Below, one piece after another: positions 21,342 through 25,743 of a stretch of DNA of 37,999 bases. Below the pieces are notes generated by a model. It did not search any database and was not told the DNA's origin. It saw only the letters and a program-made list of their open reading frames with translations. Source of the stretch: Proteiniphilum sp. GTDB lineage: Bacteria; Bacteroidota; Bacteroidia; Bacteroidales; Dysgonomonadaceae. The stretch is from contig WOYT01000045.1 of NCBI GenBank assembly GCA_011620695.1, forward strand, positions 1 to 37,999, written 5' to 3'. Each line of letters starts with the position of its first letter. Positions within the stretch are counted from its first letter, which is position 1. The position numbers and the translations under genes were made by a program.

Positions 21342-22262
21342 CTATTTCTCCCACTTTAATGAAAAAAGGAGCGTCTGCCTCATTGGGTTGGTGTCCGGAG
21401 CAATTAAATATGCCAGATCGAGTGATAGTCCGGAAAATTTAGTTCCAAGACCGATTGTTGTGTATGAAGCACCCACATCTTTGCTTTCGTAATGATAACC
21501 GGTTCTCAACGCAAAGACACTCTTGTAGTTGTACTCTGCTCCCAAGCCGCTGGCAATACCGCTGTAATTAGGTGTAAACTGGTAGAAGAGATCCGCTACA
21601 GTCAAGAGAGAGTGATCCTCGTTTAATGAAAAATGATAGGCGATCCCCGACTTTATACGTGCTGGCAACTGGTAGCTGTCATTACCATAATCAATCTTGG
21701 ATCCCAAATTGGAAGCACCCAGTCCCAAACGCAGATTCCCTCGATCATAGAGCATCGAGATATCAGAGGAGAAGGCGGATGATTTTGTATCCTGATCCAT
21801 TTTAGAAGAGAGATAACGCAAGGAAACGCCAAAAGATATATTACTGCTCAGCCTGTAGCCAGCACCAAGGTCGAGTGCATATTCGGAAGGAGCATATGTC
21901 CCGACAATATTCCCATTATCATCTGTAGCGGTGAATTCCCCCATTTTATTGGAACGAAATCCTGCCAGCAGGGCAAATTTGTTCAACCTGTGATAACCAG
22001 ACACGTTGAAAAGGGTTGCATCAGTTACTTGTGGCTGCCAAAGCAGCATAGAAGCTCCTACAGCCGTAGAAGACTCATTTTCAGGCATTACAGAAGCACT
22101 GTTGTGCTGCACTGCGAATGGAGAGGTGAGAATGTAACCCGCGTTGCCCATTGCTGCTGCTCGTGCATCGGAGGGTGTATTCAGAAATGAAACACTCTGG
22201 CTGTAGGAAACAACAACGAAGAATGTTGAGAGAATAAAGGTGAAGAGATATCGTTTTTTCAT
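21342..22262 (-). CDS. PorV/PorQ-like outer-membrane protein, short
   Basis: The product has 306 residues, a signal peptide ending near SYSQS, and a mature chain of alternating beta-strands like an outer-membrane barrel. The start FLNTPSDARAAAMGNAGYIL, followed by VQHNSASV and later APSEYALDLGAGYRLSSNISFGVSLRYLSSKM, follows the pattern of PorV (LptO), the barrel that binds T9SS cargo and hands it to the sortase PorU. PorV is usually near 390 residues, so this is shorter and nearer PorQ-like proteins. Its ATG overlaps the TGA of the protease gene (22259-22262), so the two are translationally coupled. A cargo-specific shuttle role is inference. Confidence 0.8.
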   Translation of the reverse strand: MKKRYLFTFILSTFFVVVSYSQSVSFLNTPSDARAAAMGNAGYILTSPFAVQHNSASVMPENESSTAVGASMLLWQPQVTDATLFNVSGYHRLNKFALLAGFRSNKMGEFTATDDNGNIVGTYAPSEYALDLGAGYRLSSNISFGVSLRYLSSKMDQDTKSSAFSSDISMLYDRGNLRLGLGASNLGSKIDYGNDSYQLPARIKSGIAYHFSLNEDHSLLTVADLFYQFTPNYSGIASGLGAEYNYKSVFALRTGYHYESKDVGASYTTIGLGTKFSGLSLDLAYLIAPDTNPMRQTLLFSLKWEK

Positions 22263-24979
22263 AATTTAATGATCTGCCTTTGTATAACTTTGTCAGAAAG
22301 TTTCACGTTAACGTTGTAAACACCGCCGCTGAATGTCGACATGTCAATCTTCGCAGGGGCAAAAGGCGAAATATCAATTTCATCTTCATAGACCTTCACT
22401 CCCGCACTATTGAAAATAGTTACCAACGAACGGTGATCTTCTCCTGTTCTTAACCAGACAAAGTCCTTGACAGGATTCGGATAAATATCAATTTCCTGTT
22501 GTTCATCCCTGATCAGGATACTGAACTGTTGTGAGACAGACAATCCCAAAACATCCGTTGCTGTTATGGTTACATTCGCCATGCCGTATGCAAGCGATAC
22601 GATATATAACTGACCCCTGTTCTCATTCACATTCACCACATTGGGCGCTGAATTATTGAATGTATATTTGAGAGGCTCATTGTCCTGATCAAAGAAATAG
22701 TCCGCTAGAGAGAAAGAAGTTTCTTTGTTCAAAGACCCAATGGTTACATTCTCTAGCGCTGTCACTGTTTCAGGGGCATGATTTTCCAAAATCTCATAAT
22801 TGATTTTCTGGCTAGTAATCGCACCAAAGGCATCTTCGAGAATAAGATTCACACTATATTCTCCAGGAGTTGGTACGGATCCGGTGATGGTGATCTGTAC
22901 CTGTCCCCCTCCCAAATCAACAAGCGTAACGCCTGCAATTGTTCCTGGCTCCATACTCCACCACACTTCATGATTATCAGGATCAACACCTGAAAAACGG
23001 AGCACAGCAGATTGGTACGCTCTTAGAGAGACATCCGTACTGTCCAGAACAGTTATTACAGGGGGTTGATTGAACAATGTTGTTCGGGAAATCTGTGGGG
23101 AAAGAGAAGAACTATTCCCGGAAAAGTCAAAAGCTGTTACAGCAAAATAATATTGCGTGTCAAAATCGAGTCCATCAATCTTTGCTTCAAACAGATCTCC
23201 AGCATTGAGTTGACCGGTAGGGAAACTACGCACTTCCACATCAGAAGGGGGTGTTTTAACGTTGATTCCGGCAAGCGATGATTTTCGGATAAAGACATTA
23301 AATCCCGAAGGTTTGCCATCGTCAGGGTCAGCAGGAATAGTCCAGCTTAGATTGACCACATTCGATTGAACAGATCCGTCAACAGTTCCAATGGCACCTG
23401 GAGGTATGGTACTTCCACTGGCAAGGGATGCGTGAGCGTTTACAAGTTTACCCAATTTACTTTTGTAACTCGAGTTATAACTATCGATATTGGTTGCAGC
23501 GTTCTCCAATCGTGCACGCAGCATATCGGGGTTGAAACCACTACCCTTGTAGTAAGACAATACCAAAGCAGCCACACCTGATACATGCGGACAAGCCATC
23601 GAAGTACCCTGCATATAGCCATATCCGCCTACTACGGTACTAAGCACTGTACCCTTATTCCCAAAGCTCTGTATATCCCCACCAGGAGCAGCAAGATCGA
23701 CCCAACTTCCAAAATTGGAATAATAAGCTTTCCTGAAATCAGGAGCAATTGATGAGACAGCTACCACCTCCTCATAGTTAGCCGGTGCAGCGGCTTCCCG
23801 GTCTTCGTTACCAGCGGCAAAGATTACAATACCGCCACGCATGGCACCGGTCTGCCTCCCGTTCTCATCAATACCTGCATATTGTATAAAATAGTCAATT
23901 GCAGCCTTATCGGAAGCCGGAATTTCAGTAAGCGTTGGGTAACCCCAGCTGTTCTGGCAGATTACTGCTCCATTATCGGCAGCATATTTAATGGCAGGTG
24001 CTCCATTTTGACCGGCATTGCCGGCGTAGGGATCATTTTCGTCTACGAATATTTGGCAGGACATCAGACGGACGCCATTGCCAGAGGATCCATTCCCCCC
24101 TGCAATTCCGGAAACACCTTTGCTATTGTTGTTGACCGCAGAGATGATACCGGCTACGTGCGTAGCATGATTGTTTGGCACAAGCTTGCCAACATTGGCT
24201 ACAAAGTTATAGCCATGAATATCATCCTTGTACCCGTTTTTATCATCATCCACAGAAGAGGTGCCATTTATTTCGGCACTGTTAACCCACATATTGGCTG
24301 CAAGATCCTCGTGGGTATAATCAATGCCTCCATCAATCACGGCGACCACGACGTCGGGTGAGCCTTTTGTGTAACTCCAGGCATTGAACAGGTTGATATC
24401 GGCTCCTGAAACATAATTATCACCAAGAGAACCGTCATTATAGAAGTGCCATTGGTTCGGTAGCATCGGATCATTGAAAGGCATGGCGGCAGAGGGTTTA
24501 GCTACATTCTGAGCCATTTGAATAGCCACTTTCATGACGTCTCCGGTTTCATACCTGGCAACTACTGGACGGAATTCAACTTTTCTCACACCTTTTATTC
24601 CGGAAAGGTTGTTCCGGGCATCATTCAAGGGCACCGTGGTGTCGAACTCTACGTCATACCACAGGTGCAATCCAGCTTTGCGGCTGCGCTCCTCGAACCG
24701 ACCCGCATGAGGGAAAGTGCGCTTTACAGAACGAACCTTTATCTCTGACAGGGCTTCATCGGCCGCCATCGCCCTTGTCCGTTGTTCACCAACAAGTGCC
24801 GCAGCTTCCATTTGATCCGAAAGGTTCTCCGTCACCATGATGCGGACGTAACCATTTTCGAAATCTCTTTTTAAAAGTTCTGTTGTGGCCTCTTTGGGAG
24901 TATTATCTGTTTGTAATAAATCCTCAGTGCTACAAGCTACCAACGCAATAAATGCAAACAACCAATAGATTCTTTTCAT
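22259..24979 (-). CDS. S8 subtilase-family protease with T9SS sorting domain
   Basis: The product has 906 residues. An N-terminal signal ends in LVAC (Cys16), a good lipobox. After a propeptide-like region (to about 165) comes the subtilisin domain with Asp216 (VIDGGIDY), His271 (NNHATHVAG, where most subtilases have HGTH), oxyanion Asn391 (AAGNED) and Ser460 (GTSMACPHVSG). The full catalytic set is present. A fibronectin III domain (about 535-645) and two cadherin/Ig-like repeats (about 650-820) follow. The last about 80 residues (IDIYPNPVKDF to the end) match the T9SS type A sorting domain, implying export across the outer membrane and surface attachment. The gene is second in a three-gene operon. 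Confidence 0.93.
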   Translation of the reverse strand: MKRIYWLFAFIALVACSTEDLLQTDNTPKEATTELLKRDFENGYVRIMVTENLSDQMEAAALVGEQRTRAMAADEALSEIKVRSVKRTFPHAGRFEERSRKAGLHLWYDVEFDTTVPLNDARNNLSGIKGVRKVEFRPVVARYETGDVMKVAIQMAQNVAKPSAAMPFNDPMLPNQWHFYNDGSLGDNYVSGADINLFNAWSYTKGSPDVVVAVIDGGIDYTHEDLAANMWVNSAEINGTSSVDDDKNGYKDDIHGYNFVANVGKLVPNNHATHVAGIISAVNNNSKGVSGIAGGNGSSGNGVRLMSCQIFVDENDPYAGNAGQNGAPAIKYAADNGAVICQNSWGYPTLTEIPASDKAAIDYFIQYAGIDENGRQTGAMRGGIVIFAAGNEDREAAAPANYEEVVAVSSIAPDFRKAYYSNFGSWVDLAAPGGDIQSFGNKGTVLSTVVGGYGYMQGTSMACPHVSGVAALVLSYYKGSGFNPDMLRARLENAATNIDSYNSSYKSKLGKLVNAHASLASGSTIPPGAIGTVDGSVQSNVVNLSWTIPADPDDGKPSGFNVFIRKSSLAGINVKTPPSDVEVRSFPTGQLNAGDLFEAKIDGLDFDTQYYFAVTAFDFSGNSSSLSPQISRTTLFNQPPVITVLDSTDVSLRAYQSAVLRFSGVDPDNHEVWWSMEPGTIAGVTLVDLGGGQVQITITGSVPTPGEYSVNLILEDAFGAITSQKINYEILENHAPETVTALENVTIGSLNKETSFSLADYFFDQDNEPLKYTFNNSAPNVVNVNENRGQLYIVSLAYGMANVTITATDVLGLSVSQQFSILIRDEQQEIDIYPNPVKDFVWLRTGEDHRSLVTIFNSAGVKVYEDEIDISPFAPAKIDMSTFSGGVYNVNVKLSDKVIQRQIIKL

Positions 24980-24987
24980 GTGCCAAT

Positions 24988-25650
24988 TTATTCATTAAAA
25001 AAGTCTAAAAGGACCTGTAGGGTTTCAGGACGTCTCCAGTTCACTTTATTTTTTTTCAGGAAGCGATTAAACGCATCTTTTTTGTCGTCTGAAAGCTGAG
25101 AGCTGATACCTCGTTTAGTTGCAGGGTAAACAGCATCGGGTGTCACGATAAAATATTTCGTGTCCAAAGGCAACAATGAACCACTGTCCTTGTTGCTTTT
25201 CAGCTCCATATGATTGGTAATATTGATCCCACCTATTTCTAATGAAGATAGCTTACGAGTAGCCTGCACGTTCGACGAGGAGCCATACGCCCCCCCGCTT
25301 TCGGTCAATGCATCAAAATCGGCCAACACCAGTTCTGCGACAAAACCGGTGCTGTCACCGCTCAGTACGCGCATCAGCTGGTTGTTACGCATATAGTATT
25401 GATCCTCATCAATCCGAACCAAAACGATATCTGAAGTAGTAACCTCTCTAATCTGTCCGTTATCCAGGTAATGTAACGAACTTTTCAATAGGTGCACATT
25501 AACAGGTGCCGATAGCGTCCTCTTGTTTGCAAAATAGACCGTACCATCGCGGAAATCAGAATACTTATAAGGCCACATTGTGGTAATATCCTGTGCTTGC
25601 AAAGCGGAGGAAAGGCACAAAACCAATAGATAGAGTGCTGATTTTTTCAT
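24988..25650 (-). CDS. Secreted protein of unknown function, first gene of the protease operon
   Basis: The product has 220 residues with a clear Sec signal peptide (MKKSALYLLVLCLSSALQAQ). I do not recognise the family. The mature chain has a strand-rich N-terminal half (TMWPYKYSDFRDGTVYF, VNVHLLKSSLHYLDNGQI) that resembles secreted beta-rich modules, a serine/glycine-rich middle (GGAYGSSSNV) and a helical, lysine-rich C-terminus (KKDAFNRFLKKNKVNW). There is no lipobox and no T9SS domain. The stop is 8 bases before the protease ATG. Periplasmic chaperone, inhibitor or assembly factor for the protease are possible; none is shown by the sequence. Confidence 0.8.
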   Translation of the reverse strand: MKKSALYLLVLCLSSALQAQDITTMWPYKYSDFRDGTVYFANKRTLSAPVNVHLLKSSLHYLDNGQIREVTTSDIVLVRIDEDQYYMRNNQLMRVLSGDSTGFVAELVLADFDALTESGGAYGSSSNVQATRKLSSLEIGGINITNHMELKSNKDSGSLLPLDTKYFIVTPDAVYPATKRGISSQLSDDKKDAFNRFLKKNKVNWRRPETLQVLLDFFNE

Positions 25651-25672
25651 ATCCCATGATTTTTTCTTTTGA

Positions 25673-25704
25673 CAAATATAGCATAATTCCCTCTTTCAAG
25701 CAAA
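25673..25704 (-). promoter_or_regulatory. Promoter of the three-gene protease/PorV-like operon
   Basis: On the minus strand TTTG (25704-25701), 20 bases, then TATATTTG (25680-25673), matching both boxes and the spacing of the Bacteroidota consensus. Transcription would start near 25666, about 16 bases before the ATG. Confidence 0.75.
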
Positions 25705-25712
25705 TTTACGAT

Positions 25713-25743
25713 AAAAAGGCGTCCAAATAATGAACGCCCTTTT
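25713..25743 (-). terminator. Intrinsic terminator of the first SusCD operon
   Basis: On the minus strand AAAAGGGCGT pairs with ACGCCTTTTT (one G-U) around an 11-base loop, ending in a T-run. It lies about 30 bases after the FN3 lipoprotein stop and just before the next promoter, so the two operons are transcribed separately. Confidence 0.78.

Follow-up and report, generated by a model that had tools for sequence, protein, structure and literature searches.

The DNA analyzed here, hereafter referred to as the window, is a 37,999-nt stretch of Proteiniphilum sp. (contig WOYT01000045.1, assembly GCA_011620695.1). One short unit of three genes on its minus strand encodes, in this order, a 220-aa protein (U220; 24,988–25,650), a 906-aa S8 subtilase (22,259–24,979) and a 306-aa PorV-like protein predicted to form a 14-strand barrel (hereafter PVL; 21,342–22,262). 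The ATG start codon of PVL shares the tetranucleotide ATGA with the TGA stop codon of the subtilase. The original prediction, made from the sequence alone, had described one promoter driving a secreted protein of no recognized family, a subtilase with a sorting domain of the type IX secretion system (T9SS) and a PorV-like barrel, and all of these elements were confirmed by the searches reported below. It had also proposed that the barrel is dedicated to the protease, and we discuss here what form such a partnership might take.

The subtilase and its barrel

The subtilase matches the Pfam families Peptidase_S8_N (133 bits), Peptidase_S8 (139.8 bits) and Por_Secre_tail (PF18962; 35.6 bits, cut-off 27), and its C-terminal domain (CTD) matches the NCBIfam model TIGR04183 (27.8 bits, cut-off 23). 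With both CTD profiles above cut-off, the protein has the sorting domain of T9SS type A cargo. From the N-terminus it consists of a lipobox, a propeptide (S8_N), the catalytic domain, an Ig/fn3-like linker and the type A-like CTD (22,268–22,486, minus strand, delimited by Pfam), with a near-terminal lysine in the final IIKL. T9SS type A cargo carries a type I signal peptide, the ordinary Sec signal, and in this respect the subtilase differs: its N-terminus reads MKRIYWLFAFIALVAC-STED, a lipobox that the original prediction overlooked. By pattern rules, the putative lipoprotein signal peptide, MKRIYWLFAFIALVA followed by CSTED, extends to the lipobox cysteine C16 (LVA-C, then STED; 24,932–24,979, minus strand). 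The available text of PMC12618676 describes T9SS cargo just as Sec-dependent.

We examined the subtilases of 36 subtilase-PVL pairs, which we refer to as cassettes. A strict pattern rule finds the lipobox in 33/36 cassettes (missing L081, L088 and L090) and a looser rule in 35/36, the remaining miss being L090, a gene split by a broken frame in a draft genome. Of the 12 further CTD proteins from the genus that served as a control, a single one scores (L159), and it probably has an ordinary signal peptide. At positions +2 to +6 behind the lipobox cysteine, at least one acidic residue is present in 35/35 subtilases and two in 27/35, counts that stand without a control set; the surface-export consensus published for Capnocytophaga, in the available part of PMC5080379, is K-(D/E)2 or Q-A-(D/E)2. 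The catalytic residues D216, H271 and S460 are identical in all 35 cassette subtilases compared, the asparagine tested next is present in 31/35, and lysine is the last or next-to-last residue in 35/35. The Por_Secre_tail cut-off of 27 is passed by 8 of the 11 subtilases (from cassettes or from genome G261, described below) that were scanned against Pfam. The subtilase is probably a fat-anchored surface protease.

PVL scores 55.3 bits to the Pfam PorV family (cut-off 27) and 211.8 bits to the NCBIfam PorV/PorQ family (NF033709; cut-off 90), and on this basis is a PorV relative. It lies below the equivalog cut-offs of PorV (NF033710; 164.4 versus 250 bits), PorQ (NF033711; 74.9 versus 220 bits) and PorV2 (24.3 versus 325 bits), and since the family score is above its cut-off while these three are below theirs, we regard PVL as a paralogue, neither canonical PorV nor PorQ. 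Six other PVLs likewise fall below the canonical PorV cut-off (56.9–223.9 bits), and the genome of the window holds a separate canonical PorV elsewhere (G000:C80; 391.7 bits to the PorV family). In a tree of 87 proteins (midpoint root, some PVL branches long), all PVLs, namely 34 cassette PVLs (2 of the 36 were too short and were omitted) and the solo PVL of G261, fall on one side of one branch (97/90). Their neighbors in the tree are canonical PorV and its paralogues, and PorQ stands apart, its 10 rows forming a group of their own (100/100).

The AlphaFold2 (AF2) model of PVL, computed with 18 PVLs as input, has 14 long strands (pLDDT 81.1, pTM 0.77). Its best match in the PDB is 8gl6_F, a PorV chain from a CTD-bound translocon (TM 0.81, E 3.1e-17); the two top matches are PorV chains, with FadL, TodX and TbuX also among the matches. 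A profile built from the 18 PVLs recovers PorV of F. johnsoniae at E 2.8e-32, and PorV residues about 254–317 (~60 residues) are matched by just about 7 residues of PVL. In the PVL model, the segment so reduced connects strands 9 and 10 as a turn, which would face outward if the N-terminus lies in the periplasm.

The pair across genomes

Within the genus, PVL and the subtilase co-occur in the identical 4/39 genomes. A PVL-only query (two peptide patterns, one genome per species, 84,980 species) returned 27 loci, and in 19 of these a subtilase is encoded directly upstream. The paired loci come from Proteiniphilum, Petrimonas, Symbiothrix, Prevotella, Hoylesella, Alloprevotella, Porphyromonas and two other Bacteroidales or Bacteroidia; the 8 unpaired ones are a canonical PorV (L094), a further relative (L095) and six distant family members. 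We also searched 18 chosen genomes, 8 taken from the PVL-query loci and 10 from a Peptidase_S8_N survey described below, and found 25 PVLs above 138 bits in 13 of them, the next match scoring 89 bits. A subtilase is directly upstream of 24 of the 25. Twelve were known as pairs beforehand, and the 13 new ones are paired with one exception, in G261. Among Porphyromonas and Prevotella, four genomes have several cassettes (three in G308, two in G309, five in G310 and six in G311; L215–L224, L226, L227), one Porphyromonas genome carrying six; mostly, another lipoprotein-like gene lies upstream of these cassettes.

The two members of the pair have diverged in step. Across 33 cassettes, PVL distances correlate with CTD distances (r = 0.71) and with catalytic domain distances (0.66), and shuffling PVLs within multi-cassette genomes alone gives p = 0.005 for the CTD and 0.007 for the catalytic domain. 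As judged from these comparisons, the conserved unit is the subtilase-PVL pair, which is found far outside the genus. None of the outcomes that the original prediction named as speaking against it (no conservation, a sole PorV, an unrelated barrel) was found for this pair. Among the titles and abstract starts listed by searches of open-access papers, none describes the pairing, PorV paralogues with lipidated cargo or PorV without a T9SS.

The original prediction had taken all three genes as the unit, and we reject this part, since close relatives of U220 were found solely in the Proteiniphilum/Petrimonas/Symbiothrix clade. U220 has an ordinary-looking signal peptide and matches nothing in Pfam or NCBIfam at E 0.01; its AF2 model is poor (pLDDT 62), and its best match in the PDB is a histone at E 0.26. 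It is present in 6 aligned loci (the window clade and Symbiothrix), and the other cassette loci scanned gave no U220 match. Distant relatives, one of them from another family at 32% and the others at 22–28% over most of the protein, apart from one short 36% match, have neither a subtilase nor a PVL nearby. Where cassettes without U220 were inspected, other lipoprotein-like genes lie upstream, assigned to BACON by Pfam in 3 proteins of 2 loci and otherwise recognized by eye. By its distribution, U220 is a lineage-specific accessory, a clade-specific addition to the pair. A gene that by eye resembles an M16 peptidase adjoins one distant U220 relative (L030:8343–11261), and another is found directly behind a cassette in a different genome (L080:10951–13839).

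PorV-family paralogues were also considered as general neighbors of CTD cargo, which is not supported for the highest-scoring paralogues of the class: among 20 neighborhoods of the paralogues listed, 8 of them PorQ by the tree, a clear CTD-like direct neighbor was seen by eye in L107 and L115 only. At these two loci, from other Bacteroidia, the CTD-like proteins are 1341 and 869 aa long. PorV-family genes also adjoin genes with CTD-like tails, again by eye, at L099–L103 (KSB1, Neomarinimicrobiota, Elusimicrobia).

The unit in the window begins with predicted transcription signals. An exact match to TTTG-N20-TATATTTG, which we take to be a Bacteroidota-type promoter, lies at 25,673–25,704 (minus strand), 5′ of U220. 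The window as a whole has two such exact matches (TTTG-N20-TANNTTTG) against 0.37 expected, and at least two occur in 6/100 shuffles. The promoter recurs with the identical 20-base spacing in 3/5 other U220 loci examined. Still further 5′, a minimum-energy fold predicts a terminator-like hairpin followed by a T run (25,713–25,743, minus strand), giving the order hairpin, promoter, U220, subtilase and PVL; hairpins are predicted 5′ of U220 in 6/6 loci examined, from folds made without a shuffle control. Hairpin and promoter set the unit apart from the lipoprotein gene upstream. A sigma-70 scan of the region found 15 sites against 11.7 expected, which is near chance, and none at the U220 promoter. 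Located 5′ of the unit are two genes whose products resemble lipoproteins, with a lipobox recognized by eye, and a SusD/SusC pair.

Occurrence with and without T9SS genes

When 148 Bacteroidales genomes were surveyed with Peptidase_S8_N, 19 of them were positive, with 35 matches. Besides the window and one fragment, 33 S8_N proteins were read; a lipobox is present in 14 of these and absent from 19. The 14 are distributed over PVL cassettes (five: one each in G254, G238 and G268 and two in tandem in G273), G261 (eight) and G044 (one). No PVL neighbors any of the 19 proteins without a lipobox, the downstream gene being visible for 16 of them and the other three reaching a contig end. Genome G268 has one S8_N protein of each kind, with PVL solely beside the lipobox protein, and four genomes that have non-lipobox S8_N proteins only (G046, G298, G301, G304) have canonical PorV and SprA and no PVL.

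Three genomes from three families, each 99% complete (G254, G261 and G273), encode PVL together with lipobox CTD subtilases, and searches for SprA (E 1e-10) and canonical PorV gave no match in any of them. The PVL profile detected a canonical-size PorV in 13/14 genomes with SprA; the exception, G305, which is the genome of L080, has a SprA fragment and no canonical PorV match, perhaps through incompleteness. In the 1.60 of 2.24 Mb (72%) of G261 that we scanned, there are eight CTD-like C-termini, exactly those of its eight lipobox subtilases; the profile used was built from 33 cassette CTDs and 8 others and leans to the cassette type, and genes cut at the ends of pieces could be missed. G044, from the family of G273, has a lipobox S8_N subtilase without a CTD and has neither PVL nor SprA. 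In the few genomes compared, the CTD thus tracks PVL rather than SprA.

At locus L136, whose genome gave no SprA match, a single PVL follows two tandem lipobox CTD subtilases. Within the genus of the window, a PorV match of some kind is found in 33/39 genomes and a SprA match in 37/39, yet each genome has just 1–6 type A CTD matches, which would make for a cargo-poor T9SS. Two of these matches recur by size, at about 750–800 and 108–120 aa (G000:C46, G000:C74). From their sizes they could be PorZ- and PorA-like; NCBIfam named the CTD alone.

Possible functions of the barrel

We lean, with modest confidence, toward the reading that PVL is a dedicated outer-membrane partner that docks the lipid-anchored subtilase, which itself would be exported as a surface lipoprotein. 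After lipidation, the subtilase would reach the outer membrane and be flipped onto the cell surface along the route that SusD and other surface lipoproteins of Bacteroidota take. Its Ig-like CTD, an export signal in ordinary T9SS cargo, would be retained as a permanent docking domain sitting on the extracellular loops of PVL, resulting in a barrel-lipoprotein protease complex anchored at two points, with protein feeding as its possible purpose. Because the pair occurs where the SprA machine was not found, the role of the barrel is probably to keep the protease at the surface and not to export it. The original prediction had offered either an export partner or a surface receptor; the latter fits better, and the former is doubtful because of the lipobox with its acidic residues and because three 99%-complete genomes with the pair gave no match to SprA or canonical PorV.

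Parts of this arrangement have precedents. The available text of a review (PMC10202324) states that PorU keeps its CTD bound to PorV and PorZ keeps its CTD on PorQ, and proposes that CTDs may be shielded from cleavage by cognate PorV-like barrels; the proposed complex is alike in keeping the CTD as a dock on a PorV-family barrel. PorU and PorZ are, however, T9SS parts exported by the T9SS, whereas the protease here is probably lipid-anchored. The FadL-type barrel BamG uses its loops to bind the surface lipoprotein BamH (PMC12578637), as proposed here for PVL and the subtilase, but the authors see no PorV-like function for BamG, and the available part of that article mentions no CTD.

Several observations weigh against the docking of a lipid-anchored protease on PVL. 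The lipoboxes are assigned by pattern rules, and a lipobox does not predict an adjacent PVL (5/14 are in cassettes, with eight in G261 and one in the PVL-free G044). In G261 (L128–L131, L200), the single PVL lies beside none of the eight subtilases and might be a dock shared by them. Three of the 11 subtilases scanned are just below the Por_Secre_tail cut-off (24.1 bits for P. histicola L082; 25.6 and 25.9 bits in G261). Correlated divergence is also expected to arise from co-inheritance of the gene pair, an effect that the within-genome shuffle reduces and does not remove. The absence in G254, G261 and G273 covers SprA and PorV, and PorU and GldKLMN were not searched. Finally, the window genome has SprA and canonical PorV, and SprA is present in 10 of the 13 chosen PVL-bearing genomes, so the T9SS may be used there.

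This last point also favors a dedicated T9SS shuttle, in which PVL would replace PorV on SprA and pull out a single cargo, as PorP/SprF does for type B cargo. Besides the presence of SprA, this is consistent with a CTD above the curated cut-offs, with a best fold match to PorV within the translocon and with a gene order as in the type B cargo-SprF arrangement (PMC12618676). According to the available text of the same source, type A CTDs are all taken by PorV as one common shuttle, and a PorP/SprF barrel of its own often accompanies type B cargo. The pair resembles the latter in having the barrel gene directly 3′ of the gene for the CTD protein, a pairing that suggests specificity; in contrast, PVL belongs to the PorV family and is paired with a lipobox protein whose CTD is type A-like, and any dependence on the T9SS would be hypothetical here. 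Compared with PorV and type A cargo, PVL is homologous and folds alike, and its partner has a type A-like CTD with a near-terminal lysine, but most loci have a single barrel gene following a single protease gene, the protease carries a lipobox, and the barrel is shorter, lacks the strand 9–10 insertion and is found in three genomes without a SprA match. We consider a shuttle rather unlikely: these three 99%-complete genomes keep the pair, a long PorV segment is missing from PVL, the cargo has a lipobox while the 19 non-lipobox S8_N proteins have no adjacent PVL (downstream gene seen for 16/19), and the four genomes with such proteins alone have canonical PorV and SprA and no PVL.

PVL might instead be the exporter itself, as a two-partner lipoprotein flippase whose barrel recognizes the CTD and moves the lipidated protease across the outer membrane. 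A single barrel directly behind a single lipoprotein gene in most loci, and the occurrence without a SprA match, would agree with this, but a 14-strand FadL-type barrel seems too narrow for a folded protease, no barrel of this kind accompanies SusD or other adjacent lipoprotein genes, and G261 has one PVL for eight subtilases; the odds of such a flippase are poor. Poorer still are those of a FadL-like channel that takes up small molecules or peptides released by the protease, with no binding between CTD and PVL: the fold matches to FadL, TodX and TbuX and the SusC/SusD operon adjoining the unit in the window point to it, but it leaves unexplained both the retention of the CTD where SprA was not found and the CTD-less lipobox subtilase of G044 that goes with no PVL.

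Returning to PVL as a dock for the lipid-anchored subtilase, we tentatively raise a broader and more doubtful idea. A PorV-derived barrel and a CTD may together make up an autonomous device for bringing lipid-anchored proteases to the surface and keeping them there without the type IX translocon, possibly including their export, and this device may have multiplied in some genomes to one-barrel-per-protease cassettes. The CTD code would then have a second use, outside the T9SS.

Type A CTDs are read as a sign of T9SS export. If the subtilase-PVL pair works without SprA, then CTD annotation alone would not show T9SS secretion. In Poribacteria, genomes with CTD domains and no structural T9SS genes found have been described, with a pathway that "remains to be revealed" in the available text of PMC3909097, and this puzzle would gain a testable idea in a PorV-family barrel. 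The multi-cassette genomes of Porphyromonas and Prevotella offer natural sets in which the recognition of CTDs by their barrels may be studied.

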